From: Bifidobacterium colobi
GTDB lineage: Bacteria; Actinomycetota; Actinomycetes; Actinomycetales; Bifidobacteriaceae
Length of the DNA: 64,000 nucleotides
Reading direction: 5' to 3'
Assembly: GCF_018555455.1 (NCBI RefSeq)
Contig: NZ_JAFEJU010000002.1
Span: forward strand, 434,001-498,000
Shown here: in pieces, positions 9,075 through 48,474 of the stretch
Layout of the letters: the number at the start of each line of letters is the position of its first letter
How positions within the stretch are numbered: the stretch's first letter is position 1
The notes under the pieces: generated by a model
What the model was told of the DNA's origin: nothing
The model's input: the letters and a program-made list of their open reading frames with translations, nothing else
The model's database searches: none
Made by a program: the position numbers and the translations under genes

Positions 9075-10190
9075 TTATGCGTCCGGCCAGTTGCTATCTG
9101 CTGCCCGCTCGGTGAACGGATTCATGATGGTCATAGGGGCTCCAGCCTCAAGTAGCTTGTTGATTAGCGGAGTTTTCTGCCGTACTTCGTCATAGGTGGT
9201 TCGAACAATAGTGTTTACGCCGGCTTTGCGTATATTGTCTTCGCGTTCCCTTTCTGAATGCACGACATCCTGTATGCCTTGGCGATGAGTCATCGAAGGA
9301 TCAACGTATTTGGCGGTGCCGTCGAATTCCAATACGATGATTCGCCCACTGGGCGTATGCCAAACAAAATCTACTCGATACTCCTTCCATGGAGCGTCAG
9401 GGTTGACGAATACATGCTGCAAATCGGGAACTACGAACCCGGCTTCTATGATGATGGCGCGGCATAAAGATTCGCCCCCGTTCTCGCTGAGTGGATTCAT
9501 ATAATGAACAAGTCTCAACACGCTGCTGCAATCGATTCGTGATTGATCGCATATCTCGATGATCTGGTCGGAGGTCACGAGTTTATTGCGTGCTGCGGAA
9601 TCGAACATCGGTAGGGCTTGCGTGAATGAGAACTGCAGTCCGCAGTCGACCAAGGTTTGCGCAGGGGAGGTTATCGGTACGATATTGGTGATCTCCGGCT
9701 TTCTGCCACCGATGGTAATCTCCGCTATTCGAGGTGACTCTGGCGGAAGATCAAGGAATACTGCGCCGACTCCCGTACTCGTTCGGTAGTGCAGCATGGA
9801 CGCGATAGCTGATGTGGATGTGCTGATACGTTGTATGCCTGAATAGGTGCGCGCAGAAGTTCCTGTCTTTTGCGCAATGAACACCGTATTGTCGCGGTGA
9901 AGGCTCCAGCTGTAATCCAACTGCAGGATTGCCGCTGCGCTAAGACCTGCGAACACTCGGTTGGGGAACTGCTGAGAGAGCGTCCGAATGATATGGCGCG
10001 ACTGCTCTGCGGGATTCAGCGACTTCCAGTAATCAGTGCGCGCGTAGGCATTGCGGAATGGTCGAGTCAGGTATCCGTTGCGCAGCCGTATCAGCATTGC
10101 CTGTTTTATGGTGTTGGATGTTGAATACAAGCAGCGTAGGTTACGCTCAGCGTCATTGATGAGCTGGTCAAGGGCATGATGGGTTCTCAT
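9075..10190 (-). CDS. AbiEi-like / PD-(D/E)XK nuclease-domain protein (paralogue 1)
   Basis: A 371-residue protein. The N-terminal part (about 1-120) has features of AbiEi-type winged-helix domains (RNAYARTDYWKSLNPAEQ, then FAGLSAAAILQLDYSW). The C-terminal part (about 235-345) resembles DUF559/Vsr-like endonucleases. E240 (NGGES), D274 (YRVDFVW) and E288-x-D290 (VLEFDG), with K294 nearby, form a plausible PD-(D/E)XK site. The start ATG 10190 is chosen because the paralogue at 47359-48474 aligns from MKTHH to the same total length of 371. Hairpin clusters A and B flank the gene and a perfect DnaA box lies 84 bases upstream. Such proteins are often labelled antitoxins, but no partner toxin gene is adjacent. 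The function is unknown. Confidence 0.8.
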   Translation of the reverse strand: MRTHHALDQLINDAERNLRCLYSTSNTIKQAMLIRLRNGYLTRPFRNAYARTDYWKSLNPAEQSRHIIRTLSQQFPNRVFAGLSAAAILQLDYSWSLHRDNTVFIAQKTGTSARTYSGIQRISTSTSAIASMLHYRTSTGVGAVFLDLPPESPRIAEITIGGRKPEITNIVPITSPAQTLVDCGLQFSFTQALPMFDSAARNKLVTSDQIIEICDQSRIDCSSVLRLVHYMNPLSENGGESLCRAIIIEAGFVVPDLQHVFVNPDAPWKEYRVDFVWHTPSGRIIVLEFDGTAKYVDPSMTHRQGIQDVVHSEREREDNIRKAGVNTIVRTTYDEVRQKTPLINKLLEAGAPMTIMNPFTERAADSNWPDA

Positions 10191-10273
10191 GATTCCATGG
10201 TCGAATGGCATGCGTGCATTTGACAAGCTGGAACGGGGTATGTGGTTCGAGCTTCAGGTTTCTGACGAAAAAA

Positions 10274-10282
10274 TGTGGATAA
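10274..10282 (-). promoter_or_regulatory. DnaA box-like 9-mer upstream of nuclease gene 1
   Basis: TTATCCACA on the minus strand (TGTGGATAA on plus) matches the DnaA box consensus exactly. It lies in a 14-base string, GTGGATAACTCGAT (10275-10288), that is repeated identically upstream of the paralogous gene at 48566-48579. Conservation in both upstream regions suggests regulation rather than chance; DnaA binding is inferred. Confidence 0.5.
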
Positions 10283-10364
10283 CTCGATAACAATTGTGAT
10301 GTTGTGCGCGATTTTGTTTACGTGGATTGGATGCAAGAGGTCGGTGGGATTGTAATGGGATGCG

Positions 10365-10543
10365 AATCCTCACTATGTATGCGGCCGAACAGAGTGCTCG
10401 CATACATAGCGCCGGTTAAAGGATTGAAAGTCTCACTATGTATGCGACTGGACCAAGATGCCGCATACATCGTGAGGATTCAGCGGCCTTAATCCTCACT
10501 ATGTATGCGGATGACTCGTCGGGGCGCATACATCGTGAGGCTT
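10365..10543. repeat. Hairpin cluster B (three BIME-like hairpins)
   Basis: B1 (10365-10417): core CTATGTATGCG, unlike arms AATCCTCA left and CGCCGGTT right. B2 (10432-10476): CTCA/TGAG arms, with one mismatch in the core (CATACATCG). B3 (10491-10543): CTCA/TGAG arms, with the same core mismatch. All loops are 15 nt with AC-N-R at the same position, plus strand in B1 and B2, minus strand in B3. The B2 loop is almost the reverse complement of the A3 loop (shared CTGGACCAAG). The rest of 10191-10650 shows no gene, only the DnaA box upstream of the nuclease gene. Confidence 0.9.
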
Positions 10544-10650
10544 CACTTGTGTGCAATGGCAACTCGGTGTGTGTGACAGGTGATATAGGCGTGCAGGGCA
10601 GACGGGCGGCCAGATTGAACGGATGAGACGGCAGCCGAACGTCGTCTGCA

Positions 10651-11244
10651 CTACGGCTGCTTTACGATAAGCATATTGGTCTCGTAGTCATAGGTGGTGC
10701 GGGGATCCAACAGTGGATAGCCAGACCGTTCGAAGTCGGTGGCCCAGCGCTCGCGTTCGGTGAGCTCGCGGAGACCTTTCATGCGTATCCAACCATTGCG
10801 AATTTCCATGACGGCTTGGCGCAGTTGCCCTTGATATTCGCACGGAATTGTGAACTCCATGGCGTCGAACGCGCGGAACATGATGAAGCGAATGCGGTAG
10901 TCATACCATTCGCCGCCGGCTGAAAGACGACTCTGCGCAGCCATAAGGTCGACTCCGCCCCAGCGTGGGCGTATGGCAAGTGCGCTGATTGGCCGATGTT
11001 GGAGGCGAAAGGCAGCCCAGGCACATGCGCCAAGCAGTGGAATCACAATGCAGAACGCAACTACAGCTTCCTTGATCTGCGGGAAATCGTGCATCATGAT
11101 TCCGTCCAGAAATGTGACCACGAACATGCCCAAACAAGATATACAGGATGCGAAAACCAGCGTGTGCTTGATGCGGGTGAGCCAGGCCCAGAGCGCTAAT
11201 GTGCGTTCGCCTTGGACCCAGCCGTTTTCCGTTCGGAAGCTCAT
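10651..11244 (-). CDS. Small membrane protein of unknown function
   Basis: A 197-residue protein starting MSFRTENGWVQG at ATG 11244, 7 bases after the stop of the quinone reductase gene, so probably translated with it. Two hydrophobic segments (about residues 27-50 and 62-82) are followed by a cytoplasmic part with several Trp and Arg residues (LAIRPRWGGVDLMAAQ onwards). This two-helix plus soluble-domain layout resembles YcxB-like small membrane proteins, but I cannot assign a family with confidence. The pairing with a flavodoxin-type oxidoreductase is the only functional hint. Confidence 0.7.
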   Translation of the reverse strand: MSFRTENGWVQGERTLALWAWLTRIKHTLVFASCISCLGMFVVTFLDGIMMHDFPQIKEAVVAFCIVIPLLGACAWAAFRLQHRPISALAIRPRWGGVDLMAAQSRLSAGGEWYDYRIRFIMFRAFDAMEFTIPCEYQGQLRQAVMEIRNGWIRMKGLRELTERERWATDFERSGYPLLDPRTTYDYETNMLIVKQP

Positions 11245-11251
11245 CGGTCTA

Positions 11252-11782
11252 TCAGTCCGTAAGGAATGCTTGGTATCGCGCGGCGGTTTCGGCCAGCGCC
11301 TCATCGGAAAGCTCCATCGCGCCGAAGACCACGAATGGCTCCAACCAAGTGGCGTGCACGTAGCGGGCCATCATGCGGTATTGCGAGAGCACTTCGCGCA
11401 TTGTTGCACCATTATCTTCCGGCTGGTATTCGCTTTCCGGGCCGCCTGCCGTGGTGGCCACCGTGATTTCCTTGCCTTCAAGCGCCTTGCCGCCGGGCCC
11501 GTATGCCCAGCCGAACGCCAGCACCTGATCCTCCCATTCCTTGAGCAGGGCGGGGGAGGAGTACCAGTAGAGCGGGAACTGCAATACGATGCGATCATGT
11601 GCCTCGATGAGCTGCTGCTCGGCCGCGACGTCGATGCGGCCGTCCGGGTACAGCGCATATTCCTCGCGCACGGTAGTCTCGTTGCCGCTGTCAACAGACA
11701 GAGCTTGCGCCGCCGCCATCAATGCCGCGTTAGCGCGGGACTTCGCCATGTCAGGGTGGAATACCAGTACCAAAGTCTTCAT
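11252..11782 (-). CDS. Flavodoxin-fold NAD(P)H:quinone reductase (copy 1)
   Basis: The 176-residue protein begins MKTLVLVFHPDMAKSRANAAL, the phosphate-binding start of the KefF/YwrO/MdaB flavodoxin-like family. It has the FMN-contacting QFPLYWYSSPALLKEWEDQVL and TAGGPESEYQPE segments. These enzymes reduce quinones by two electrons with NAD(P)H, protecting against redox stress. AAAGGAG precedes the ATG. The paralogue at 15665-16186 is clearly similar over its full length. The 3' neighbour (10651-11244) starts 7 bases after its stop. Confidence 0.9.
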   Translation of the reverse strand: MKTLVLVFHPDMAKSRANAALMAAAQALSVDSGNETTVREEYALYPDGRIDVAAEQQLIEAHDRIVLQFPLYWYSSPALLKEWEDQVLAFGWAYGPGGKALEGKEITVATTAGGPESEYQPEDNGATMREVLSQYRMMARYVHATWLEPFVVFGAMELSDEALAETAARYQAFLTD

Positions 11783-12026
11783 GGTGACTGCTCCTTTGTC
11801 GGTAACCTATCTGTTTTTCGGTGTTCCTTGTCTCTATGGTACGTTCGAAGACTTGCGGACGCGAATACGACGATGCGCGCGGAGATATTCGGCGTGGTCG
11901 CTGTGGATGCCGGCTGGGTGCATGGCTATGTGGCTGTCGCTCCGATGCCGCTGTAGTTCGATGCTGTAGTTCGGTATGTGATCAATAATATGGACGCCAC
12001 TGGGCTCTCGGGCTAGCGTGAGCCGC

Positions 12027-12812
12027 ATGGTTGTATGGGATTCCGAACAGTACCTGCGCTTCAAAAACGAGCGCACGCAGCCCTCGCGTGACTTGGCAAT
12101 GCAGCTGCCGCCTGATTACGGCACAGTCAAACGTGTGCTCGACATCGGCTGTGGTCCGGGCAACAGCACGGCCGTGCTTCGCGAACGGTATCCGCAGGCG
12201 GAAATCCTCGGCATCGATAATTCTCCAGAAATGATTGAAGCCGCACTCAAAGCACATCCTGATATCGACTTCGCGCTGTGCGATGTGTCGAATCCGGAAG
12301 AGCTTGGCAGACTGCCGGGCGACTTTGACGTGGTGTTCTCCAACGCTTGCATCCAATGGGTGCCGAATCATGCGCAGCTGATTCCGGAACTGCTGGCAAG
12401 GCTCAAGCAGGGCGGCATGCTCGCCGTGCAGACGCCGATGAACTATGAGGAACCGATCCATCGCATTATCGCTGAGGTCGTGCACTTGCCGGACTATGCG
12501 GATCGACTGCCACAGCAGCGGGAATTCTATAATCTGACGCCGCCTGATTATTGGGAACTATTGCGCAACCATGCGGCGCACTTCCGCATGTGGAAGACCG
12601 CGTATATGCATACGTTGCCTTCGCATGAGGCAATTATGGATTGGTATCGCGGCACCGGATTGCGCCCATATCTGCAAGCGCTGCCGGATGATGAGTCACG
12701 TGCGATTTTCGAAGCCAGGATATTCGCACAGGTCTGTGAGGCCTACCCAACCCAGTCAGACGGCAGCGTCATCTTCCCATTCCCGCGATTCTTCTTCACC
12801 GCGGTGAGGTGA
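12027..12812 (+). CDS. Trans-aconitate 2-methyltransferase-like SAM methyltransferase
   Basis: A 261-residue class I methyltransferase. The SAM site is VLDIGCGPGNSTAVL (about residue 34-48), followed by an acidic GIDNSPEMIEAA and FDVVFSNACIQWVPN. The overall pattern closely follows Tam, which methylates trans-aconitate and removes this aconitase inhibitor. The substrate here is inferred. The ATG at 12027 is chosen because MVVWDSEQYLRF aligns with the family start; a GTG at 12018 is in frame, and neither has a clear ribosome site. Upstream, CTGTAGTTCG is directly repeated near 11950-11975. Confidence 0.82.
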   Translation: MVVWDSEQYLRFKNERTQPSRDLAMQLPPDYGTVKRVLDIGCGPGNSTAVLRERYPQAEILGIDNSPEMIEAALKAHPDIDFALCDVSNPEELGRLPGDFDVVFSNACIQWVPNHAQLIPELLARLKQGGMLAVQTPMNYEEPIHRIIAEVVHLPDYADRLPQQREFYNLTPPDYWELLRNHAAHFRMWKTAYMHTLPSHEAIMDWYRGTGLRPYLQALPDDESRAIFEARIFAQVCEAYPTQSDGSVIFPFPRFFFTAVR

Positions 12813-12867
12813 TAAGGCAGGACTCGGCATCAGCCGCGGAAAACCTTGCATAAAGAAAGGAAAGCTT

Positions 12868-13833
12868 GTGATTGCTTCGCATCACAATCGGGTGGTGATT
12901 GTCGGAACTGGCAGCGTGGGCTCGGCGGTGGCCAGTGCCATCGTGGAGCAGGGGCTGTGCAATGAGTTGGTGCTCATCAACCATAATCCACGCAAGGCGC
13001 AGGGTTTGGCTATGGATTTGGCCGACGGCTCCGAATTCCTTGGCCGATTCATCACCATTCGGCCAGGTGACTGGGATGATTGTGCCAACGCTGATGTGGT
13101 GGTCATCACTGCTGGGCCAAAACCGAAGCCGGGCGAGACCCGTATGCAGGAGCTCGATGCGGCCATCGACATTGTGGACCCGATATTGAAGCACATCAGC
13201 AACTCGGGCTTTGATGGCATCCTGATCATGCTGTCGAATCCGGTCGATGTGTTGAGCTGGTTCGCGTGGCGACGTACCGGTTTGCCGCGTGCGCAGGTGT
13301 TCGGTTCGGGCGCCGCGCTTGATACCTCCCGCATGAAAGCGATTATCGGTACAACCACGCATCTCGATCCGCGACTGGTATCGGGGTATGTGATCGGCGA
13401 ACATGGCGATTCGCAATTTGTGCCGTGGTCCACGGTCTCGTTCATCGGCAAATCGTTCGCGCGGTATCTGGAGGACAACCGCGACCGATATCCAGGCGTC
13501 ACGCTTGCCGGCATCGAAGAGCAGACCCGCCGGCGAGGCCTTGACATCAAAGGATTGCGCGGCGGAACCAGCTACGGTATCGCCGCCACCGTCGCCGGGT
13601 TGATTCGAACGATTCTCTGGAACGAACGCAGCGTCGTATCCGTGTCCACATTGATAAGCGGCGAATACGAGTATGGGGAACGGGATGTATTCCTGTCGCT
13701 CCCGGTTGCGCTCGATGGCAGTGGCGTCGGCGACTTCGTCGACCTTCATCTCAACAGGGAGGAATTGGTGAAATTCCACGCTTCCGCTGCCGTAGTGCGG
13801 GAGCATTGCGCCCTGATTGCCGACCGATTGTGA
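12868..13833 (+). CDS. L-lactate dehydrogenase-family protein
   Basis: A 321-residue member of the LDH/MDH family. The NAD site is VVIVGTGSVGSAVAS, the substrate loop region is PKPGETRMQE, and GEHGDSQFVPWS contains the catalytic H179. The loop sequence resembles LDH or L-2-hydroxyisocaproate dehydrogenase more than malate dehydrogenase. Bifidobacteria usually carry a main fructose-1,6-bisphosphate-activated Ldh; this divergent protein looks like a second, accessory enzyme. GTG start with GAAAGGAAAG upstream. It is followed convergently by a TetR gene. Confidence 0.85.
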   Translation: MIASHHNRVVIVGTGSVGSAVASAIVEQGLCNELVLINHNPRKAQGLAMDLADGSEFLGRFITIRPGDWDDCANADVVVITAGPKPKPGETRMQELDAAIDIVDPILKHISNSGFDGILIMLSNPVDVLSWFAWRRTGLPRAQVFGSGAALDTSRMKAIIGTTTHLDPRLVSGYVIGEHGDSQFVPWSTVSFIGKSFARYLEDNRDRYPGVTLAGIEEQTRRRGLDIKGLRGGTSYGIAATVAGLIRTILWNERSVVSVSTLISGEYEYGERDVFLSLPVALDGSGVGDFVDLHLNREELVKFHASAAVVREHCALIADRL

Positions 13834-13848
13834 GGTAAGGCTCGCTAG

Positions 13849-14493
13849 TCAGGCCGCTTGACAGCCGGTATGGTAACGTTCGGCGGTGGCGACGCCATGA
13901 AGCATCAAATCGGTCATGATATCGGCCAGTACCTCGTCGGGCGCATCCATGTCGTTGAGCACCCACTGGTCGATGACTTCGCACAGCGCGCCCGCCCAAT
14001 AACAGGCGGCATAGCGTGGGCCGATCTGACGGCGGGCGGCGCTGCGGTTCATGCTCGCGCGCATCCGCTCGCGAATACGGTTTCCTTGGCCGGCGCCAAG
14101 AATAAGCCGATACTGTGGTGCGATGCTGCGTACGCCGGTAAGCATGGCCAGACAGGCCTCGCGGGTCTGCGTCATCGGATCGTATTGCATCAGACTGTGA
14201 TTGATTCGCTCAAAGATTGCGGCGAGAAATCCGTCTAGAATCGCCTCTTTTGAAGCGTAATTACGGTAGTAGGCATTGCGTGAGACGCCGGCTCGTTTGG
14301 CGATGTCGGTGACGGTGATTGACTCGAATGGTTTCATCTCCATCAGTTGGATGAGCGCGCCTTCGATGCATGCGCGCACAAAAGCGTTCGATTCCTCATT
14401 ATTGCGGTGCAGGGTGGCAAGTCTGCGGGCTTTGGTGCCATCGCCGTCCGTGGGCTGCTGATCTGATGTCTTGGTCTGAGGCACATCCGCCAT
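13849..14493 (-). CDS. TetR-family regulator
   Basis: The 214-residue protein has a TetR helix-turn-helix at about residues 45-90 (ITVTDIAKRAGVSRNAYYRNYASKEAIL) and a helical ligand-binding half. The start has AAAGGAA upstream. It is divergent from the SDR gene at 14616, and the 122-base gap contains a dyad, ATGATGT-N10-ACATCAT, that is a good operator candidate. It therefore probably represses the SDR gene and itself. Ligand unknown. Confidence 0.9.
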   Translation of the reverse strand: MADVPQTKTSDQQPTDGDGTKARRLATLHRNNEESNAFVRACIEGALIQLMEMKPFESITVTDIAKRAGVSRNAYYRNYASKEAILDGFLAAIFERINHSLMQYDPMTQTREACLAMLTGVRSIAPQYRLILGAGQGNRIRERMRASMNRSAARRQIGPRYAACYWAGALCEVIDQWVLNDMDAPDEVLADIMTDLMLHGVATAERYHTGCQAA

Positions 14494-14567
14494 GTCACAG
14501 TTCCTTTCGTTCTGTCATCGCCGTGCCGAGATGCCTTGCGGCTGCCAAGTCTCGACGGTTATCGTCA

Positions 14568-14591
14568 ATGATGTCACACTTGTTACATCAT
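14568..14591. promoter_or_regulatory. Candidate TetR operator (dyad ATGATGT-N10-ACATCAT)
   Basis: Perfect 7-base arms separated by 10 bases. The same stretch also reads as a direct repeat, TGTCACA and TGTTACA. It lies between the divergent TetR and SDR genes, 25 bases before the SDR start. Its role is inferred from position and symmetry. Confidence 0.5.
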
Positions 14592-14615
14592 AACCGGAAG
14601 GTGCAGTCAAAGGCC

Positions 14616-15548
14616 ATGAATACGAGGCAATCCATCAATACATCATCGTCATCTGCAGGCAAGGTCATTCTGGTGACCGGCGCATCCAGTGGCATCGGCA
14701 AACAGACGGCGTTGGCGCTCGCAGTTCAGGGGTATACGGTCATCATGCACGGTCGCAATCCAAAGAAGACGCAGGAGGTGCGTGATTGGGTCGAACAACG
14801 CACCGGAAACCGCAACGTATACGCTCACGTGGCCGACCTGTCGCTGATGAGCGAAGTCGTACGATTCGCAAAGGAAATAACTGCCACCTATGAGCGACTC
14901 GACGTGCTCGTCAACAATGCCGGCGGGCAGTTCGGTTCCGAACGAGAAGTCACGGCGGAAGGTCACGAGAAGACGTTCGCCATCAATACGCTTGCGCCGT
15001 TCCTGCTGACCAACCTATTGCTGCCTATGCTGGAACGCAGTGAATCCGCTCGCATCGTCACCGTGGCCAGTGAATCCTACCGTCAGGGCGGCCAGCCGAT
15101 GCTTGACGACGTCGAACTGGAAAGTCATTACTCAATGATGCGCGCCTATGGTCTTTCGAAGCTGTATGTCTGGTGGCTGATGAGGCAGTTCGATGCGCGG
15201 CTCCAAGCGGCTGGCGTGCGCAACGTTACGGTGAATACCGTGGAACCCGGATCGGCCGCTACCTCGTTGCAGCGTGAGTCGCTGCGCAAAACGCCTTGGA
15301 TGCTGCCGCTGATTGTGCTCTGGCTCCCGTTTGTACGCACCGCACGGCATGGCGCGCGAACCAGCGTCGCGCTGGCTTCTTCGCCGGACGTCGAAGGGGT
15401 GAGCGGCGAGTTCTGGGGCAATATGCGGCGCAAGCGCATCCATCCGAAATGGATATCTGCAGAAGGTGAGCATCGCATTTGGCAGTATTGCGCCGAAGTA
15501 TGCCGCCCGTATCTTGAAGGCACCGATCTGGTACTGCCGTTGCGTTGA
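14616..15548 (+). CDS. Short-chain dehydrogenase/reductase
   Basis: A 310-residue SDR. The coenzyme site is ILVTGASSGIGKQTALALA (about residue 16-34), then VNNAGG and the catalytic YGLSK with an upstream Ser in TVASESYR. The start is set at ATG 14616 because the nucleotide-binding strand begins shortly afterwards; the open frame extends further 5' but overlaps the TetR gene. The AYGLSKLYVWWLMRQFDARL region resembles retinol-dehydrogenase/oxidoreductase-type SDRs. Substrate unknown. Probably controlled by the divergent TetR gene. Confidence 0.88.
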   Translation: MNTRQSINTSSSSAGKVILVTGASSGIGKQTALALAVQGYTVIMHGRNPKKTQEVRDWVEQRTGNRNVYAHVADLSLMSEVVRFAKEITATYERLDVLVNNAGGQFGSEREVTAEGHEKTFAINTLAPFLLTNLLLPMLERSESARIVTVASESYRQGGQPMLDDVELESHYSMMRAYGLSKLYVWWLMRQFDARLQAAGVRNVTVNTVEPGSAATSLQRESLRKTPWMLPLIVLWLPFVRTARHGARTSVALASSPDVEGVSGEFWGNMRRKRIHPKWISAEGEHRIWQYCAEVCRPYLEGTDLVLPLR

Positions 15549-15614
15549 TTTCGATGGAATAAACGCTGTGTGTGAATTGGTTCATGTGAGGTGAACCTGA
15601 ACCGAATATGCAAA

Positions 15615-15642
15615 ACGGCTCCTTCATGGTGGAAGGAGCCGT
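15615..15642 (-). terminator. Terminator hairpin of the quinone reductase gene
   Basis: ACGGCTCCTTC-loop-GAAGGAGCCGT, an 11-bp stem with a 6-base loop. Read on the minus strand it follows the stop of the 15665-16186 gene by 22 bases and is followed by TTTT. Confidence 0.75.
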
Positions 15643-15664
15643 GGGCGATTAAGGAACCCTCAGG

Positions 15665-16186
15665 TTACTTGGTCAGGTAATCCTTGTAGTTCTTGACGGA
15701 TTCGGCCAGAGCCTCATCGGAGATGCCGAAGGAGCCGAAGGTCACGAACGGCTTGATCCAGGTGGCGTTGATGTGGTTGGCGGTGCCCTGGAACGGCACG
15801 AGCACCTGCTCGATCTTGAACTTGTTGTCACCTTCCGGCTGGTACTTGGACTCCGGGGAACCGGTGGACACGGCAACGCCGAACTCCTTGCCTTCGAAGG
15901 CGTGGCCTTCGGAACCGTACGCCCAGCCGTGCTCCAGCACGTCATCTTCCCAGGTCTTCAGCAGAGCCGGGGAGGAGAACCAGTACAGCGGGAACTGGAA
16001 CACAACGCGGTCGGCGGCCTCGACGGCGGTCTGCTCGGCCTTGACGTCGATCTTGCCGTCCGGGTAGAGCGCGTACTCGTCACGCACGGTCACATTCTCC
16101 AGGCCCTCGGCGGCTTCGGCCAGAGCGGCGTTGACGTGGGACTGGCCCTTCAGGGACGGGTGGAATACGAGCACCAGAGTCTTCAT
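15665..16186 (-). CDS. Flavodoxin-fold NAD(P)H:quinone reductase (copy 2)
   Basis: A 173-residue paralogue of 11252-11782. It has the same MKTLVLVFHPS start, EYALYPDGKIDV, QFPLYWFSSPALLKTWEDDVL and SPESKYQPEG segments. ATG 16186 follows AAGGAGAAG at good spacing; upstream in-frame codons to 16222 are not needed. Third-base choice is strongly C-biased compared with copy 1 and most neighbours, suggesting high expression. The gene is monocistronic, with its own terminator at 15615-15642. Family role: two-electron reduction of quinones or related electrophiles. Confidence 0.92.
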   Translation of the reverse strand: MKTLVLVFHPSLKGQSHVNAALAEAAEGLENVTVRDEYALYPDGKIDVKAEQTAVEAADRVVFQFPLYWFSSPALLKTWEDDVLEHGWAYGSEGHAFEGKEFGVAVSTGSPESKYQPEGDNKFKIEQVLVPFQGTANHINATWIKPFVTFGSFGISDEALAESVKNYKDYLTK

Positions 16187-16302
16187 ATTGCTTCTCCTTG
16201 ATATGACATTCCTATGGCTCACTCAGTAATATCGCAAGCCGATATATCTCAGAATGAACTATATGCGTAACGGTGGAGCAACCGGCGCATGGCGTGTCAT
16301 AT

Positions 16303-17295
16303 TCATCTCACAGCCGACGAATCTGACGAATCACGGTCGCCATATTGCTTGCGGTATATACCGGGAGAGAGCGCGAAGTGCTCGCGGAATCGTTTGCCGA
16401 AATAACTGGCGTTGGCGAAGCCGCAGATGCGGGCGACATGGGCGATGCTGTCGTCGTCGGAGACAAGCTTTGCGGCCGCCTGACTCAGCCGGTACGACAG
16501 CAGATAGTCCACGGGGCTGCTGCCGGTATGGGTTTTGAAGAGACGGTAGCATTCTGTCCTGCTGACCGAAGCGCTCGCCGCGATATCGTTCAAATCGATC
16601 AGCTCGCCATAATGCTGCTGGATGAACACGAGCATGACTCGCATACGCTGTTCGCGGCGCTGCTCGACACTCGGCGCTTCCGGGATGTCCCTTGTGGACA
16701 GTGTCCGGAGCAATTCCTTCCACAACGTGGCCATGTGCGTCATGTAGTCCAATGCTCGCATGGGATCATGCTGGCCGACCGCGGTGAGCGCTCGAATCTC
16801 CCTCAGCATGGCGGCATCCCGTTCGGTGGTGAGTCTCAGCCCCGCGAACGGCTTGCTGGACACTGGCAGCACTTGGTCGAGATAGATGGTGCCGGCCGGT
16901 TGTCCCGAGAAGAACAGCGGGGAGACGGTCAAGCAGCTCATCACGGCACCCGGTGTGGGGTGATCCGCCGAATGCAGCATTTTCGAATTCACGAAGATGC
17001 CATCGCCCTGTTGCAGTCGAATTGTATTCGAGGTGCCATGCAGGTGATAATCGCATGCGCCTTTCAGCATGAAGGCGAATTCGAAATCCGTGTGCCAGTG
17101 GATGTTGATCTCATGGCCGATGAGTGTATCGAAATAATCCATACAGAAATGAATCGGTATGGACGCGTCGTTATAGCGGATGTCCTCCAAATAATCGTCG
17201 TTGACGGGGACGGCCTTGTTCAGGGTATTGGTGGCATCTTTCGCGGCGAGCGACAGGACATGTGGAGGGTGTGATGGGGCGGGTTCGGCTGGCAT
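16303..17295 (-). CDS. AraC-family regulator
   Basis: The 330-residue protein has an N-terminal cupin-like sensor half (IHWHTDFEFAFMLKGACDYHLHG, about residues 48-70) and two C-terminal helix-turn-helix motifs (LNDIAASASVSRTECYRLFKTHTG and IAHVARICGFANASYFGKRFREHFA). This is the layout of regulators responding to sugars or small metabolites. CAAGGAG precedes the ATG. It is divergent from the DUF1349 gene at 17521, its likely target. Confidence 0.92.
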   Translation of the reverse strand: MPAEPAPSHPPHVLSLAAKDATNTLNKAVPVNDDYLEDIRYNDASIPIHFCMDYFDTLIGHEINIHWHTDFEFAFMLKGACDYHLHGTSNTIRLQQGDGIFVNSKMLHSADHPTPGAVMSCLTVSPLFFSGQPAGTIYLDQVLPVSSKPFAGLRLTTERDAAMLREIRALTAVGQHDPMRALDYMTHMATLWKELLRTLSTRDIPEAPSVEQRREQRMRVMLVFIQQHYGELIDLNDIAASASVSRTECYRLFKTHTGSSPVDYLLSYRLSQAAAKLVSDDDSIAHVARICGFANASYFGKRFREHFALSPGIYRKQYGDRDSSDSSAVR

Positions 17296-18118: not shown

Positions 18119-18170
18119 CTGAGACGGGTTGGTTAGATCGTGGTGACATAATCGAGCCAACCCGTCTCAG
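18119..18170. terminator. 14-bp inverted repeat between convergent genes
   Basis: CTGAGACGGGTTGG (18119-18132) and its exact reverse complement (18157-18170) enclose a 24-base loop. It lies between the DUF1349 gene and the convergent acetyltransferase gene. Position suggests a shared terminator, but the long loop and missing T-tract leave a protein-binding site possible. Confidence 0.55.
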
Positions 18171-37195: not shown

Positions 37196-37266
37196 TTGTC
37201 GTCGAAGGCCCTCGTATTCGCCATTATTGCGGGTACAAGGCGCTTGGATCGCCTCCCAGAAGTCCA

Positions 37267-37384
37267 AAACGTCCGTATGTTCGCGCAATCCACGGACCCT
37301 GCGCGTACATACGGACGTTTTTCAGTGCAAAATCCTCCGTATGTATGCGCAGTACTCGTCAGTTGCGCGTACATACGGAGGATT
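37267..37384. repeat. Hairpin cluster C (two BIME-like hairpins, no nuclease gene nearby)
   Basis: C1 (37267-37320): 21-bp stem with one mismatch, AAACGTCCGTATGT start. C2 (37331-37384): 21-bp stem with one mismatch, AATCCTCCGTATGT start. Both have 12-nt loops between CGCA and TGCG, with AC-N-R at loop position 5, plus strand in C1 and minus strand in C2. Stems are of the CCGTATGTATGCGC type shared with clusters D and E. It lies between the AKR and methyltransferase genes without an adjacent nuclease gene, so the element can exist alone. Confidence 0.9.
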
Positions 37385-39617: not shown

Positions 39618-39629
39618 CGAGGAAAGCAA

Positions 39630-40725: not shown

Positions 40726-40995
40726 CGCCTCGGCATGTGGAGGGCACCCGGCAATGGAACTCCACCGATCAGATGTTCGCCGATTTCAACACAATGGTGG
40801 CTGAATTGGGCAGCATCGAGACCATGAAAAACGATTTCGTGTCCAATGTGAGTCATGAAATCAAGAACCCGCTTGCCATCATCACTACGCATGCCAAGGC
40901 TTTGGAGCATGCCACCGTGGAGATTATCGATGACGGCTGCGGTATGAGCGAGACCGAAGCCGCCCACATATTCGATAAGTTCTACCAGGGGGGGG
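40726..40995 (+). pseudogene. Histidine kinase remnant (two deleted pieces)
   Basis: The frame gives a HAMP-to-HisKA segment, SIETMKNDFVSNVSHEIKNPLAII, ending near KALEH at about 40910. It then runs directly into the G1 box, VEIIDDGCGMSETEAAHIFDKFYQG. The dimerisation helix end, N box and everything after the F box are missing. A run of seven G follows at the 3' break point (about 40989-40995). Confidence 0.8.
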
Positions 40996-40999
40996 CACC

Positions 41000-41224
41000 G
41001 CGCATGCCGCAGCGCAGATCGCGAATCTGGGCGCGGCTCCAGCGTGCAACGGTCGTATCGCCGGGCTGAGCCTCGGCCTCATTGGCTGCGCATTCCTTGC
41101 CGGCGCGACGTTCTCCTATCTCGCCTCCATGATTGCGCTGATGGTCATTCTCGCCATTCCCGGCTTCGCCTGCTGGATTGCCGCATACCCCGTATGCCGC
41201 AAAGCAAGCCAATTGCTTGCGTAA
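41000..41224 (+). pseudogene. C-terminal fragment of a small membrane protein
   Basis: In a different frame from the kinase remnant, 41000-41224 encodes about 74 residues with two hydrophobic stretches (GLSLGLIGCAFLAGATFSYL and IALMVILAIPGFACWIAAYP) ending ASQLLA-stop. No start codon or ribosome site is present. It looks like the tail of a deleted gene; the family is not recognised. Confidence 0.5.
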
Positions 41225-41313
41225 ATCATTGTCCGAGTGATTGAGGTATGTTGCGCTATTGCGAGCGTGCATTGCATGCCACATGATGCTGAAGAGGGGA
41301 TACCACGCAAAGT

Positions 41314-42684
41314 ATGACAGAGAAGAATCAGACGCCGATAACCGATAAACAGCGCACGGCGATTTTCGCGGTACTCCTGGCCGCGTGCATCGCCGGTGCG
41401 TTTGCGCAAACATCGCTGACCACCGCACTGCCGGCAATCATGACAAGCCTCGACATTTCCGCGGTGCTCGGCAACTGGCTGACCAGCGGATTCTCGCTGG
41501 CGATGGGCGTGATTATCCCGGCTACCGCGTTCATGATGAAACGGTTCAACACCAAGCCGCTGTTTTTGACAGGTCTTGCGCTATTCGCCGGCGGTCTGCT
41601 GCTGGCCGCCGTTTCGCACAGTTTCCCGCTGCTCATGACCGCGCGCATCATCTAGGCACTCGGTTCCGGCATCTCACTGTCGATGACGCAGGTGATCATT
41701 CTTGCGTTGTACGCCGAATCCGGCGTTGGCGCGGCGATGGGATTCTACGGGCTCGCCGTTTCCGCGGCGCCGGTCATCGCCCCGACGCTCTCCGGCCTCA
41801 TGGTCGACCACTGGGGATGGCAGTCGATCTTCTGGGCGGCGGGTGGTATCTCGACGCTTGTGCTGGTGATTGCATTCCCGGTGATGCGCAACGTGTTGAA
41901 AACCTCGGCGGACGCGCACCTCGACGTGCTCTCGTTCATTCTTGCCGCATTCGGCTTCGTCGGCCTCCAACTCGGTTTCAGTAATCTTGGCGTAGCGCCA
42001 GCATTGAGTTGGCAGGTCCTCGGCGCGCTCGCCGTGGGTGCCATCTGCCTGGCTGTGTTCGTGGTGCGTCAGCTTAAGATCGGCCATCCGATGCTGCAGC
42101 TGCGCATTTTCGCCACGCGCGACTTTGCGGTGGCGGTGCTGCTCAGCATGTTCCTGTATGCCATTCTGATTGCCGGCTCCACGATTCTGCCGATGTACAT
42201 GCAGCAGATGGATGGTGCGACGGTGACGATATCCGCGCTCGCCATGCTGTCCGGCTCGTTGGTGATGGCGGTGTCTTCGCCGGTTACCGGCCGAGTATTT
42301 GACCGGTTTGGCATTCGCCCGCTGGCCATCGGTGGCATGGCATTGCTGGCCGTTACGATGATTCCGTTCGGATTCCTAACGGATAACACGCCGATTTGGT
42401 GGATCGCTGTGGTGTTCGCCGTACGTTCGGTGGCTGTGGCGATGGTGATGATGCCGGCCGCCACTTGGGGTTTGGCTTCGGTGGAGCGCCGGTATGCCAG
42501 CGATGCCAGCGCACTGCTGACATCGCTGCGCACGATTGCCGGAGCGCTCGGTTCCGCGGTGTTCGTGGCGGTGATGGTTGCCTGCGGTAATAATCCGACC
42601 GGTGTTTCCATTGCTTTCTGGGCCATGGTCGGCGTCGCCGTGGTCGGCCTCATTATGGCCGTGGTGTGCTGCCGCCGGCGGTAA
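41314..42684 (+). pseudogene. DHA2-type MFS transporter interrupted by an in-frame TAG
   Basis: A single frame of 457 codons would encode a complete DHA2 transporter (TTALPAIMTSLDISAVLGNWLTSGFSLAMGV and so on). The stop TAG at 41653-41655 interrupts it at residue 114. The context RII-stop-ALGSG matches the conserved RIxQAxGSG motif, so CAG to TAG explains the break. Downstream frame 41683-42684 encodes the remaining 10 or so helices without a normal start. It overlaps the convergent TetR gene by 32 bases. Confidence 0.85.
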
Positions 42685-43279
42685 TATCGTTCTGCTCTTT
42701 CAGTGAATTGATGAGCTGGGCGATGATGGTCGGCAATACCGAGTGGCTCAGCCATTCGATATTGCTCGGTGTGAACACCTCCGGTGCTTTGGCCAAGACG
42801 CCGAGCATGCCACTGGATGCGAATTCCAGTAGAATGTGCTGACCGGGATTGAGCGTTGCCGGATCGCGACCGAGCGTCGCCAGCCAGATTTCGATGACGT
42901 GGGTTTTCAGCTGATTGGCCAATCCCGTGGAACCATGTGGGCCGGCAATCAGCGCCAGCCTACGAATGCTGGCAATGCGCTGCGGTGAGGCTATGCTGGC
43001 GATGGCATAGTCGCGAATCGCGTCAGTGCCTTCATCCTGCTGAATGATATGCGCAATAAACGCGGTGATATCCGGGTCCCCATAGATTGAAGCGATGGCA
43101 TCGTCCGCCAGTTCGGGAATGTTGCCGTAATGGTAGTAGAACGCACTGCGATTCAAACCGCTCAGGCGTGTAACGTCGCTGATGGTGATCTGCGCATACG
43201 GCTTGAGCTCCAGCAGCTGCCAGAGCGCATCCTGCATTTTCTCCGGTGCGCCTTGCTCGCCTGTCTTCGGTCGTGCCAT
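42653..43279 (-). CDS. TetR-family regulator
   Basis: The 208-residue protein has a helix-turn-helix at about 28-60 (ITISDVTRLSGLNRSAFYYHYGNIPEL) and an alpha-helical ligand domain. GAAGGAAG precedes the ATG. Its 5' region faces an ABC transporter at 43570 with three repeats of ACCCAACATAATGATG between them, which are likely binding sites. That makes the ABC transporter the probable target. Its 3' end overlaps the broken MFS gene. Confidence 0.9.
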   Translation of the reverse strand: MARPKTGEQGAPEKMQDALWQLLELKPYAQITISDVTRLSGLNRSAFYYHYGNIPELADDAIASIYGDPDITAFIAHIIQQDEGTDAIRDYAIASIASPQRIASIRRLALIAGPHGSTGLANQLKTHVIEIWLATLGRDPATLNPGQHILLEFASSGMLGVLAKAPEVFTPSNIEWLSHSVLPTIIAQLINSLKEQNDITAGGSTPRP

Positions 43280-43316
43280 ACGTGTCTTCCTTCTAGTTCC
43301 TCATCTGCAATCAATA

Positions 43317-43417
43317 ACCCAACATAGTATCGTGTTTTCCGCATGATACTGCGGTTTCCGGGCGTAAACCCAACATAATGATGAATTGCGTGGATTTAAT
43401 TACCCAACAGAGTGATG
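43317..43417. promoter_or_regulatory. Three direct repeats ACCCAACATAATGATG upstream of TetR/ABC
   Basis: Copies at 43317-43330 (ACCCAACATAGTAT), 43368-43383 (ACCCAACATAATGATG) and 43402-43417 (ACCCAACAGAGTGATG). They occupy the divergent region between the TetR gene and the ABC transporter genes. Regulator binding is inferred; the copies are spaced 51 and 34 bases apart start to start. Confidence 0.5.
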
Positions 43418-43569
43418 TATTTCTTGATATGCGATGCAAGGCGCCAACAGCATCCAGCCTGCATCCGTCCTCAAGTCGACTATGGCTGCGGCTCGCGCGA
43501 TTAGGAGAGCCGGAGGGCGGCAGGCTCAATGATTGAATCCAGCAATCGTAAGAGAGGACTTCACATACC

Positions 43570-44271
43570 ATGGCTTTCCTTGAATTCCATGACGTAGTGC
43601 GCCAATACGGCAGCGGTGAATCCGCGGTATTGGCACTCAACCATGCCAGCTTCGATATCGAACAGGGTGAACTTGCCGTCATCCTTGGCGCATCCGGCGC
43701 CGGCAAATCCACCACATTGAACATTCTGGGTGGCATGGATCGCGCCACCTCGGGCTCCGTGGTCATCGATGGCAAAGACATCACCAAAGCCAACGAAGCT
43801 CAACTTACCGACTACCGCCGGTTCGATGTGGGCTTCGTGTTCCAGTTCTACAATCTCGTGCCCAATCTGACTGCCCTCGAAAACGTGGAGCTCGCCTCGC
43901 AAATCTGCCCGAACGCATTGGATGCCAGCGAAACCCTGAAGAAAGTCGGACTTGGCGATCGACTCGCCAACTTCCCCGCGCAGCTCTCCGGCGGCGAACA
44001 GCAGCGCGTCTCCATCGCCCGCGCACTTGCCAAGAACCCGAAGCTGCTCTTGTGCGATGAGCCAACCGGCGCGCTTGATTACAACACCGGCAAGGAAGTG
44101 CTTCAGCTTCTGCAGGACTCCTGCCGACAGCATGGCATCACCGTGGCGCTGGTGACGCATAATTCCGCGTTGGCGCCGATGGGCGATCGCCTGATCCGCT
44201 TCCGCTCCGGCAAGGTCACCGAAATCACCGAGAACCCGAACCCCACGCCCATCGCGGACATCGAATGGTAG
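43570..44271 (+). CDS. MacB/LolD-type ABC transporter ATP-binding protein
   Basis: A 233-residue ATPase with Walker [18 protein letters not shown], a Q-loop VFQFYNL, signature [15 protein letters not shown], Walker [13 protein letters not shown] and H-loop LVTHNS. The family energises FtsX-fold permeases that export peptides or lipids by a mechanotransmission mechanism. It lies 19 bases upstream of the permease pseudogene, its natural partner, so the ATPase is probably useless unless the stop is read through. Likely controlled by the divergent TetR protein. Confidence 0.93.
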
Positions 44272-44290
44272 GGGAGCGGCGAGAACAGTC

Positions 44291-46984
44291 ATGAAGAAAA
44301 CAGCACTTTGGAAAGACGCATGGCGCGCCATCGCCGGCAACGGCAAGCGCTTCGCCGCCATGCTGGTCATCGTGGCGGTCGGCGTGATGATGCTCGGCGG
44401 TCTTAATACCATCGCCAAGGATATTCGCGCCGGCTTGGACGAATTCTTTGACTCCACATCCATGCACGACGTGGCCATCATCTCCACTCTCGGTTTTGAT
44501 GATGACGATATCGCCGCACTGCAGCAGGTTGACGGCGTTGCCAAGGTCGCCGGCGTGCGTGCCGCCAGTGTGACCACCGCAGTCGACGGCAAGCAATCCT
44601 CGGCAACCGTCACCACCCTGAACGATCAGGGCATCGAATAGCCGTATCTCAAGGACGGCAGGCTGCCGAAATCCGCCCGCGAAATCGCAGTCACCGAGCA
44701 GTACCTGAACGACAGCGGCAAGTCGGTGGGCGATACCCTGACGTTCAAGCCAGACGATTCCGGCGCTGCAGGCAGTGTCGCAGTCAGTGCTGCAGGCAGT
44801 GCGGCGGACGATTCGGAAGGAGCATTCGCGCGCGGCAAGTACACCATTGTCGGCACCGTGATCGACCCGAACGATATCGTGAACCCAACCGGCTCGCTGG
44901 CTTTGGTCTCCGGTTCGAAAACCGTGTATTCGATGTTCGTTGCGGAAAACTCGCTGAGCAACTCGGACGCTCCTTATACATCAGTGGTGCTTACGGTGAG
45001 TGACGCGAAAGCGCAGAACACATACGATGCCGGCTATCTCAACGCCGTCGATGCCACGGTCACTAACATCGAAGCCATCCAGGCCGAGCGCGAACAGGCG
45101 CGGACGGATACCGTGCATCAAGCCGCACTCGACAAGGCGACGGCATCCATTAATGCGCAAAAGGCCAAAGTCGATGCTTTGCCGGATGGGCTGCCGGCCA
45201 AAGCGGCAGCCGAGCAGAAGATCACCGAAGCACAAGCCAAAGCCAAGGCAACGGTGGATGCCATGCCGAAAGCCAAGTGGATCATTCGCGACCGCAGTGC
45301 CGTGACCAGTTATGAGGATGTCAAAACCCAAACCGAAATGATCGCACGCTTGGGCACCATGTTCCCGGTGCTGTTCCTCGTCATTGCGCTGCTGGTGAGT
45401 CTGACCGCAATCACGCGCATGGTTGAGGAGGATCGCGGGCTCATTGGCACCTATAAGGCGCTCGGCTACACGCGCCACGAAATCATGCTCAAGTACGTAG
45501 TGTATGCGGCCGCTGCATGCCTGTTCGGCGGACTGATTGGCGATGTATTGGGTCTTATTGGATTGCCATTCGCGTTCACGCGCAAAATCATCACCAATAT
45601 GTATGTGCTGCCGAACTATCCGTTGCTGGTGGACTGGAGACTCGCGTTAGGCGGCGTGCTGCTGTTCGTGATCATCATCACCGGTGCCGCGATGGTGGCA
45701 TGCACAGGCTCGCTGCGATTGGAACCGGCTACACTGATGCGTCCCAAGGCGCCTAAGGCCGGCAAGACCATTGTGCTGCAGCGCATCGGATTCATCTGGA
45801 ATCATTTGAGCTTCCTCGGCAAGGTGACCGCGCGTAACCTGTTCCGTTACAAGTCCCGTGCGCTGATGGTCATCATCGGTGTGCTCGGCTGCACGGCATT
45901 GATGACCGCCGGCTTTGGCATGGGCTCGTCCGCTCTGACGCTGATGCCGCGTCAGCACAGTGAGATTGCGCCGTACGATGTGATGGCTGTGACCTCGGCG
46001 GCTGATCACAGCAAGGCGCAGTCGGTGCTGGATAAGGATTCCGATGTGGAGTCCACGTTGCCGTTGCAGCTCGGCAGCGTCACGCTTGCACCGGTGCAAG
46101 AGAGCGAGAGCGAGAGCGCTGGCGCTGGCGCTGCGACAGACGATGCCAAGCTCACCGCGCAGCTGATGGTCATTCCGGACGGCAAGTCAACGGACGGCTA
46201 CATCAACCTGCAAACGCCTGACGGGTCACCCATCGAACTGAAGTTTGCGGATGGCGACGTTATCGTCACCGCCAATGCCGCGCGCAAACTGGCGCTCGCC
46301 GCAGGCTCCAGTGTGAACCTCACCGACCAGATGGCCAACACGGCGGACGCAACCGTGCACGAAGTTGCCCAGTACTACACCGGCAACCTGGTGGTCATGT
46401 CCCAGTCCACGTATGAGCAGATGTTCGATGCCGACTTCGCGCCGAATGCCGATCTCATTAACGTAAAGGGCGATGCGGATGCGCAGATCGCCTTCGCCGA
46501 TGATCTGGCCGAGCATAGCGAGTACGTTGCGGTAACGAGCTCCGCCGAACAGGAGCGCGACTTCTCGAAGAGTTTCCAGCTGTTCTTCGTGATGATCGGG
46601 TTCATCGTGGTCATGGCCGCGGTCCTTGCCGTGGTGGTGCTCTATACGTTGGCGAGCACGAACATTTCCGAGCGTGAGCGCGAGCTGGCCACCATCAAGG
46701 TGCTCGGCTTCCGGCGCGGCGAGGTGCATGGCTATGTGAATAAGGAGATGCTGTTGCTCAGCGCCATCGGCATTGTTCTTGGCATGCCATGCGGGCGCGG
46801 TTTGCTCGGTTTCCTTGTGAGTCAGTTGGATCTGCCCGGCATGAACATCGTGCCGAACGTGCTCTGGTTCTGTTACGCAGGCGCCGCGGCACTGGCATTT
46901 GCCTTCACGCTGCTGGTGAGTCTCGCCACCAACCGTTCGCTTGACCGCATCGACATGGTCGGCGCGCTGAAAAGCCCGGAGTAA
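44291..46984 (+). pseudogene. FtsX-domain ABC permease interrupted by an in-frame TAG
   Basis: One frame of 898 codons spans the region, broken only by TAG at 44639-44641 (QGIE-stop-PYLKDGRLP). The N-terminal part has one membrane helix (LVIVAVGVMMLGG). After the stop come an extracytoplasmic segment with an Ala/Lys-rich coiled coil (about 45060-45270), then FtsX domain 1 (IALLVSLTAITRMVEEDRGLIGTYKALGYT), a middle domain, and FtsX domain 2 (STNISERERELATIKVLGFRRGEVH). Such large permeases work with an ATPase like 43570-44271. The Gln codon CAG mutated to TAG is the likely history. No restart codon with a ribosome site follows. Confidence 0.85.
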
Positions 46985-47040
46985 CGGCTGAGCGGATGCG
47001 GCCTCGCTGTGGTTGTGGCGGGATTGTGGTCGCGCTGTGG

Positions 47041-47112
47041 CGGGTTGGGCGGTTACGCCGGGTTGAGCGGTGACGCCGGGTTGAGCGATTACGCCGGGTT
47101 GAGCGGCTGCGG
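47041..47112. repeat. Four tandem 18-bp repeats
   Basis: Units of CGGGTTGAGCGGTTACGC-type begin at 47041, 47059, 47077 and 47095, each with 1-5 differences. They lie in the gap after the broken ABC permease, before hairpin cluster D. The unit length keeps a reading frame, but no gene is supported, so a variable-number tandem repeat is the simplest reading. Confidence 0.8.
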
Positions 47113-47167
47113 TTGACTGTTGCTGAGCTACTGTGCTGATGTCTTCTGCCCGGCTATTAACTCCTAT

Positions 47168-47342
47168 CCTCCGTATGTACGCGCATCTGACGGATGCTGC
47201 GCGTACATACGGAGGTTTTAGGGGGTGAATTCGTCCGTATGTATGCGCAGGCTCTGTTATTTGCGCGTACTTGGGGACGAATTATGCGTTGGCAGAGTCC
47301 GTATGTATGCGCAGGTCTGGTGAATTGCGCATACATACGGAC
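47168..47342. repeat. Hairpin cluster D (three BIME-like hairpins)
   Basis: D1 (47168-47215): perfect 18-bp stem CCTCCGTATGTACGCGCA. D2 (47228-47283): diverged right arm with a mismatched block. D3 (47297-47342): perfect 17-bp stem. All loops are 12 nt with AC-N-R at position 5, plus strand in D1, minus strand in D2 and D3. The 82 bases of D1 plus the left part of D2 (47168-47249) recur at 48597-48678 in cluster E. D3 ends 16 bases before the stop of the nuclease gene. Confidence 0.9.
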
Positions 47343-47358
47343 GTTTGCATGAGCTGAA

Positions 47359-48474
47359 TCACCAAACGCGCCCTTGCACATCGGTGTACCTTTCGTAAAA
47401 AGGATGGGCGCGAGCCATGGGAACGTGGGCTTCCAACAATTTCCTGACCAGTGGATTGCGTTGTCTCACTTCGTTATAATTGACTCGGATGATTGCGGTC
47501 ACGCCAGCTTGCTTCAGGAAATCCTCTCGTTGGCGCTCGTCATTGACGACGCGTTGAACGCTGTGATTGTCGGTCATAGCAGGATCGACGTATTTCTCTG
47601 TTCCGTCGAATTCCAGAACAATGACGCGACCGTCCTCGGTATGCCATACGAAATCGACTCGAAAAGTGCCTTGCGGTGATTGCGGAGCAATAAAAACATG
47701 CTGCAATTCGGGGACTGCGAATCCCTCATCGATGATGGTGGCATAGCAGAGTGATTCGCCGCCATTTTCGTTTAATGGATTCGTGTAACGCAGCAGACGA
47801 AGCACCGGGCCGCAGTCTTTTTGCAGTGAATCGCAGATCTCCATCACCTGTTCGCGAGTCACGATTCCTTGACGTAGAGCGGAATCGAACATGGCCATTG
47901 CCTGGACAAAGGGATATTGCAATCCGCAATCGACCAGTGTTCGTGCCGGCGATGTTACCGGCACGATATTGGTGAGAATGGCGTTCTGGGGAAGATTTGT
48001 CATTATGCTATCAGCGGTGTTCGGGGCATTCGCGGGCATAAGCAAGGTGCAGAACTGCTGATTGAACAGGTAATGAACAACGTTATGTGTTGGCGGTCGC
48101 CTAATGATTACATGCTGTATGCTGCTGTGCGTCCGAACGGAATTGCCGCTGGACGATGCGAGAAAAATGGTCCCTTCGCGATTCAGACTCCAACTGTATT
48201 CCAAGTTGAGCATGGCAGCAGCACTGATGCCGGCGAACGTTCGATTCGGATATTGCGTGGACAATGTCCGTATGACGTGGCGGCATTGTTCTGCCGGATT
48301 GAGACTGTTCCAGTACGCCTGGCGGGCATAGACATTGCGATGCGGACGGACCAGTAGGCCGCGCTGGACACGTGTACGTGCTGCGTGGCGCTCGCTGTCA
48401 TTGGTGTGGTAGAAGCAGCGGCGTTTTTGCTCTGCGTCATTGCAGAGTTGTTCTATGCGGTGATGTGTTTTCAT
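47359..48474 (-). CDS. AbiEi-like / PD-(D/E)XK nuclease-domain protein (paralogue 2)
   Basis: A 371-residue paralogue of 9075-10190. It has the same length, the same orientation and a similar sequence throughout (for example RNVYARQAYWNSLNPAEQCRHVIRTLS, FAGISAAAMLNLEYSW). The nuclease-like centre has E240 (NGGES), D274 (FRVDFVW), E288-x-D290 (VLEFDG) and K294. ATG 48474 is chosen because MKTHHRIEQL aligns with MRTHHALDQL; the longer open frame to 48945 runs through hairpins and tandem repeats and is rejected. Clusters D and E flank it and two DnaA-box 9-mers lie upstream. No toxin partner is adjacent. The role is unknown. Confidence 0.8.
   Translation of the reverse strand: MKTHHRIEQLCNDAEQKRRCFYHTNDSERHAARTRVQRGLLVRPHRNVYARQAYWNSLNPAEQCRHVIRTLSTQYPNRTFAGISAAAMLNLEYSWSLNREGTIFLASSSGNSVRTHSSIQHVIIRRPPTHNVVHYLFNQQFCTLLMPANAPNTADSIMTNLPQNAILTNIVPVTSPARTLVDCGLQYPFVQAMAMFDSALRQGIVTREQVMEICDSLQKDCGPVLRLLRYTNPLNENGGESLCYATIIDEGFAVPELQHVFIAPQSPQGTFRVDFVWHTEDGRVIVLEFDGTEKYVDPAMTDNHSVQRVVNDERQREDFLKQAGVTAIIRVNYNEVRQRNPLVRKLLEAHVPMARAHPFYERYTDVQGRVW

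Follow-up and report, generated by a model that had tools for sequence, protein, structure and literature searches.

Predicted AbiEi-like/Vsr-like nuclease genes of Bifidobacterium lie between their own palindromic repeats in a REP–RAYT-like arrangement

Introduction

What connects a pair of paralogous genes with the clusters of DNA hairpins that enclose them? The question arises from a 64,000-nucleotide stretch of the gut bacterium Bifidobacterium colobi (the window), in which a preliminary description, made from the letters alone, had proposed a possible RAYT/REP-like system with a nuclease in the place of the transposase. Here, we examined the two genes, their hairpins, and related loci across Bifidobacterium and further genera of its order.

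Results

Two genes and five hairpin clusters in the window

The two paralogous genes (54% identity) were confirmed on the minus strand at the positions given in the preliminary description (Table 1); the same coordinates on the plus strand contain many stops. The gaps reported between genes and hairpins were also reproduced: cluster A lies 2 nt past the stop codon of gene 1 and cluster B 174 nt away, and clusters D and E lie about 12–16 and 120–122 nt from gene 2. As had been noted, four of the five clusters in the 64 kb flank the two genes, accounting for 11 of the 13 cluster hairpins. Cluster C has an aldo/keto reductase gene on one side and a methyltransferase gene on the other.

Table 1. 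Coordinates of the two family genes and the five hairpin clusters in the window
Feature	Position	Strand	Description
Gene 1 (P0001/P0003)	9075..10190	minus	371 aa; start 10190; ORF open to 10226
Gene 2 (P0002)	47359..48474	minus	371-aa form; start 48474; ORF open to 48945
Cluster A	8894..9072		three type-1 hairpins: 8894-8946, 8957-9009, 9020-9072; 63-nt pitch
Cluster B	10365..10543		three type-1 hairpins: 10365-10417, 10428-10480, 10491-10543; 63-nt pitch; upstream of gene 1
Cluster C	37266..37384		dispersed type-2 unit, two hairpins: 37266-37321, 37331-37384; without family gene
Cluster D	47165..47346		three type-2 hairpins: 47165-47217, 47228-47283, 47294-47346; 64-nt pitch; downstream of gene 2
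Cluster E	48594..48712		two type-2 hairpins: 48594-48648, 48657-48712; 64-nt pitch; upstream of gene 2

The 13 hairpins have stems of about 17–22 bp, some imperfect, and loops of mostly 12–15 nt. Clusters A and B have a common arm sequence with the inner core TATGTATGCG, and clusters D and E a different one, CCGTATGTAYGCGC. When folded as single-stranded DNA, all 13 hairpins folded better than their own dinucleotide shuffles (200 per hairpin; z −3.5 to −10.7). The background density in 20 arbitrarily placed 20-kb Bifidobacterium stretches was 0.12 hairpins/kb at a score of at least 13, and the hairpin clustering in the window exceeds chance. Four single hairpins with scores of at least 14 and sequences unrelated to the clusters were also detected in the window, at 18119, 23291, 49281, and 58791. 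Four or five T residues directly follow some hairpins. An Rfam scan gave no match and a promoter scan no promoter-like site. A terminator scan found 2 and 3 terminator-like sites, none of them at the clusters, against 1.4 and 1.9 in shuffles; it recognizes loops of 3–8 nt only and so says nothing on these hairpins as terminators.

Predicted fold of the proteins

The predicted structures of both proteins combined an AbiEi-like N-terminal part with a Vsr-like nuclease C-terminal part containing a Vsr/EDxHD-type catalytic fold. By comparison of predicted folds, the nuclease domain best matched the homing endonuclease I-Bth0305I, and the putative nuclease-site residues were invariant across 49 homologs. 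Profile matches to AbiEi were weak. The earlier assignment as a Vsr/DUF559-type nuclease fused to an AbiEi-like half is retained for the AbiEi-like and Vsr-like predicted folds and lacks support for DUF559 as a Pfam match: the DUF559 profile, which we take to be Pfam PF04480, had no match at E ≤ 1 in the two proteins and none at E ≤ 0.01 in the 49 homologs. HUH (Y1) tyrosine transposases had no Pfam match in either protein or in the 49 homologs, NCBIfam gave no match, a PDB sequence search gave nothing credible (best E 0.11), and Foldseek on its own gave no match at E ≤ 0.001. Many family proteins are labelled "CTP synthase," and the analysis suggests that this label is a misname.

Consistent with the earlier remark that a toxin partner is lacking, a Pfam scan of 10 ORFs from the neighborhoods of the genes and of cluster C revealed no recognizable toxin. 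Six of these ORFs had matches (acetyltransferase, 3HCDH, FtsX, YkuD, methyltransferase, and aldo/keto reductase) and four had none.

The gene–palindrome link across the order

The family had a match in 94 of the 112 Bifidobacterium genomes; across the order, where 149 genomes were sampled, 94 likewise had one. We analyzed 40 loci from Bifidobacterium and 23 from other genera, which are the best-scoring matches with their own paralogs, a non-random set including some mutual orthologs; the controls were mechanical ORFs of 300–480 aa in arbitrarily placed stretches. Duplicates of other loci (L001–L018 and L050/L051) were left uncounted, and the order count is without L169–L173. A palindromic repeat common to the left and right flanks was found at 29/40 Bifidobacterium loci and at 0/121 control ORFs, contrary to the possibility, raised in advance, that the gene usually has no hairpins nearby. 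The REP/RAYT-like logic proposed for the window extended far beyond it, to other loci and genera: the corresponding counts in the other genera were 14/23 and 0/137. The shared palindrome was absent from 11 of 40 and 9 of 23 loci, with L184, whose flanks were mis-set at a contig edge, entered as a miss. By hairpin score, both sides were positive at 23/40 loci compared with 1/124 controls, and one side or more at 32/40 compared with 35/124. Many loci without good hairpins had flanking imperfect repeats of about 80–300 nt.

Where hairpins stood on either side of the gene (23 loci), arm similarity was 0.957 within a locus and 0.240 between loci, a result reached by none of 20,000 permutations. Gene and palindrome also covaried (Mantel rho 0.39, 2/5000). 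The middle part of the protein (residues 92–169) was 27–38% identical between syntenic partners whose arms differ and 51–99% identical in pairs sharing an arm type; a partial Mantel test on which protein part tracks the arms gave no clear result for any of the three parts. Comparison of flank orientation at the 63 loci favored direct copies at 36 (including L184, an artefact), inverted copies at 18, and neither at nine, the units being near-palindromic themselves. The flanks were often close direct copies of the whole unit.

Hairpin families in the home genome

The B. colobi genome (G000; 2.70 Mb in 19 contigs) contains ten family members (18 matching pieces at ten places). Three of these paralogs each have their own dispersed hairpin family, types 1, 2, and 3, with 14, 18, and 15 exact-core copies, respectively; the arms are predetermined by the way these exact-core patterns were built, and degenerate copies are left uncounted. 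Reversed-pattern controls for all three types gave 0 copies in this genome. One of the type-1 cores is the cluster D hairpin at 47294-47346, and seven type-1 sites lie away from genes 1 and 2. The type-3 hairpin belongs to a third paralog at C19:63048. As for other members, the paralog at C13:214408 has a palindrome of another sequence on one side, that at C1:430711 has 80-nt hairpins of another palindrome on both sides, and those at C12:106524 and C17:104368 have repeated, less perfect units of other sequence; for the paralogs of L033 and L034, no palindrome was found within 700–900 nt. By a mechanical ORF rule that performs poorly in GC-rich DNA, 24/44 dispersed units were intergenic compared with 149/1350 random intervals. 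The orientation of mechanical ORFs beside dispersed units followed no clear pattern.

Architecture and history of dispersed units

Dispersed type-1 units are mostly inverted doublets: at 22 of 29 sites, some of them orthologous, a + hairpin is followed by a − hairpin at 63 nt, as oriented by the loop motif. The remainder comprise three triple arrays with 63-nt spacing, three single hairpins, and one pair of ambiguous orientation. Among 17 further type-1 sites, eight have one pattern-exact hairpin, all in genomes without a close gene. Type-2 pairs are spaced at 64 nt, and type 3 consists mostly of single hairpins.

The type-1 loop has the conserved motif RAC[G/C]A[A/T]G. The outer arms occur in a few recurrent forms. 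Outer-arm covariation, with kinship uncontrolled, was higher than in any of 2000 shuffles at positions 2 and 4, tied at position 7, and did not exceed the shuffles at the other five. Of 72 outer arms, five differed at three or more of six sites against about 1.6 expected, a count in which the pairs are non-independent and core conservation is biased by the search pattern. Gene conversion of the outer arms is no more than suggested by these data.

Type-1 hairpins occurred in eight of the 112 Bifidobacterium genomes. All three genomes with a 79–100% gene had them, in 14, 14, and 11 copies (phylogeny uncorrected), as did five of the 109 genomes without a close (79%) ortholog, in 6, 5, 4, 3, and 1 copies. 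The preliminary description had regarded abundant hairpins in genomes without the gene as evidence against a link; this is borne out in part, in that genomes with type-1 hairpins and no close ortholog do exist, with few copies each, and 104 of the 112 have none. A single orthologous site compared in seven species carried 3, 2, 2, 2, 1, 0, and 0 hairpins.

The exact type-3 pattern was restricted to 1/112 genomes. Most type-3 copies sit within their own inverted repeat extending past the common core, which type 2 shows to a far lesser degree. Two origins would fit: entry of type 3 into palindromes already in place, or an insertion that duplicates the flank in inverted form. At the intergenic region of G016 that matches L233, another short inverted repeat was seen by eye, which is compatible with insertion into a pre-existing palindrome and no proof of it. 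The flanks of L240 and G054 were too diverged to delimit an inserted segment.

Gene addresses in relatives

At the gene-1 address, B. colobi, B. callitrichidarum (G016; L049), and B. miconisargentati (G047; L048) share a type-1 unit–gene–unit arrangement, and the latter two encode a protein with 79% identity to gene 1. In G021, G031, and G070, the same address carries a gene with 58–59% protein identity and GCGCAGTTACTGCC arms, and its neighbors on both sides have 83–90% DNA identity to the window compared with 84–89% in G016 and G047. At L052–L054, gene-1 proteins of 58–59% lie beside a neighbor protein of 94–97%. Differing genes and arms between equally conserved neighbors would fit a replacement in which gene and hairpins move together as one cassette. 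At this address, a solo type-1 unit without a gene is present in G073, and G054 has neither unit nor gene.

The gene-2 address is occupied by family genes with other arms in G073 and G054, where both neighbors are kept (84–89%), and in G047, where one neighbor is present and the contig ends. In G016, the gene, its hairpins, and the adjoining YkuD gene are all absent.

Discussion

In the sequences, palindromes flank the genes, have gene-specific arms, are dispersed and form doublets, are present or absent at orthologous sites, and change jointly with the gene at fixed addresses. Since each gene sits between copies of its own hairpin, which are also scattered genome-wide, we consider it on balance likely that the protein recognizes its own palindrome, cuts DNA there, and so spreads and maintains the palindrome, much as has been proposed for RAYT proteins with REPs. 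The AbiEi-like half of the predicted fold would read the palindrome, as an extruded DNA hairpin or as a dyad, and the Vsr-like half would nick or cut it. Repair or strand copying might then carry the unit to a new site or, alternatively, convert existing units or add or remove a tandem hairpin. With a private recognition sequence for each gene copy, several systems could therefore exist side by side in one genome. A more ambitious proposal, which we put forward tentatively, is that these genes represent mobile or selfish DNA of a new class with a wide distribution in Actinomycetota: private-palindrome Vsr-fold nucleases that cut hairpin DNA, seed copies inside existing palindromes, have independently invented the REP–RAYT lifestyle, and are swapped, gene and code together, as a cassette at fixed addresses.

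The strongest rival, though an unlikely one, is a homing-type gene whose nuclease cuts solo units, allelic or elsewhere, and which is inserted when these are repaired from a unit–gene–unit copy, making the hairpins a target and not a passenger. The match to I-Bth0305I, the solo unit in G073, the close direct copies of complete units at many flanks, and the variation of gene and arms as a cassette at one address between equally conserved neighbors would all suit homing. However, G000 has more units than genes, type-3 hairpins occur at 12 places away from their own gene, the inverted orientation gives the better match in 18 of the 54 flank pairs that match, and the solo unit is equally explicable by gene loss. 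We give still less credence to an autoregulator or regulon, in which an AbiEi-type winged-helix repressor would bind the dyads as operators, both at its own gene and elsewhere, and the nuclease fold would merely aid binding. Dyads downstream of the genes, directly past the stop codon, sit poorly with such a repressor, as do the invariance of the putative nuclease-site residues in 49 homologs and the tandem arrays and species-specific burst, which would be unusual for operators; the AbiEi-like predicted fold, the weak AbiEi profile matches, and the dyads upstream of the genes speak for it.

An action in RNA, in which the protein would cut or cap hairpins that function in transcripts, for instance as processing sites or terminators, appears improbable: Rfam gave no match, although Vsr-like folds also occur in RAP domains of RNA-binding proteins, the N-terminal part is similar to the RNA-binding winged helix of SelB, and some hairpins are followed by 4–5 T. 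Least probable of all is that independent miniature elements or terminators were already there and the genes landed among them by accident. Dispersed units that remain in genomes without the cognate gene and type-3 cores within longer palindromes could be read in this way, but the arms are gene-specific on both flanks and the link recurs in other genera of the order. The simplest account would be a nuclease that acts at its own palindrome, the spreading being left to repair or copying.

These results suggest that a different predicted enzyme fold runs a REP-like partnership in Bifidobacterium and further genera of its order, with several copies operating in parallel in one genome. As each gene is accompanied left and right by an arm sequence of its own, genome sequence gives access to the specificity of many family members; the code can therefore be put to a direct test, as can possible programmable hairpin nucleases.

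Among known systems, I-Bth0305I, a Vsr-type homing endonuclease, shares the predicted nuclease fold; unlike it, the present proteins are fused to an AbiEi-like half and have palindromes at their flanks, and the Rfam scan gave no intron or intein. They differ from AbiE toxin–antitoxin systems in their extra nuclease domain and in the absence of an AbiEii nucleotidyltransferase toxin among the 10 scanned ORFs. In the open-access literature, the titles and opening abstract lines of the matches listed did not tie AbiEi–Vsr or DUF559 proteins to palindromes. The closest parallel is RAYT/REP, for which PMC2817692 describes palindromes tied to HUH transposases, flanking palindromes that coevolve with a fast-evolving gene, regularly spaced alternating repeats, and usually, not obligatorily, >100 palindromes per genome; PMC3116915 describes inverted palindrome doublets as units (REPINs). 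Our family resembles RAYT/REP in a gene placed between cognate palindromes, in the joint change of both, and in a gene that evolves faster than its neighbors, and resembles REPINs in dispersed inverted doublets of regular spacing and alternating orientation. In contrast, a predicted AbiEi-like plus Vsr-like nuclease replaces the HUH/tyrosine transposase, the exact-core families in G000 are far from >100 copies (with degenerate copies uncounted), flank units, though near-palindromic themselves, tend to match better as direct than as inverted copies, and several private systems share a genome. On this comparison, the family works like REP–RAYT in its genetic logic without being a member of it.

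Hairpins away from the genes and a site lacking the type-3 hairpin

The GCGCAGTTACTGCC hairpin type found in Bifidobacterium miconisargentati (G047) was that of the G070, G031, and G021 genes. In G166, from another genus of the order, the palindrome had two copies next to the gene and a single further copy at another place in the genome (L187 and L217-L219).

The site in B. callitrichidarum orthologous to L233 (L270, on G016:C1) is intergenic and lacks the type-3 hairpin, a family private to one B. colobi paralog. Because this intergenic sequence contains, as judged by eye, a different short inverted repeat, there is a hint that the hairpin sites may be targets. A type-4 palindrome family was also present, at L105 in B. 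colobi and at L036; in the L105 copies the apex is CACTGA-N7-TCAGTG, as in type 3, but the lower stem differs.

Positions of hairpins and neighboring repeats
Feature	Coordinates	Remark
GCGCAGTTACTGCC-type hairpin	L080:2619-2664 (G047:C9:22619-22664)	Not beside G047's own gene copies
L040 paralog locus	G000:C1:424500-437500	Flanked by two imperfect 80-nt hairpins
L105, type-4 palindromes	G000:C12:300001-320000
Imperfect tandem repeats	window 48776-49155	GC-rich; upstream of gene 2
Perfect 32-bp tandem duplication	window 8825-8888	Adjoins cluster A
12-bp periodic repeat	window 8029-8111	Near the 32-bp duplication

Repeats beside the genes and naming of the family

At L040, both hairpins sit within 214-nt direct repeats that are 94% identical. 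A longer, 528-aa ORF of gene 2 reads partly through the GC-rich repeats and hairpin cluster E.

Many family proteins among P0004-P0105 carry the NCBI name 'CTP synthase'. Since the motifs and predicted fold are AbiEi plus Vsr-like, this label is probably a misannotation.
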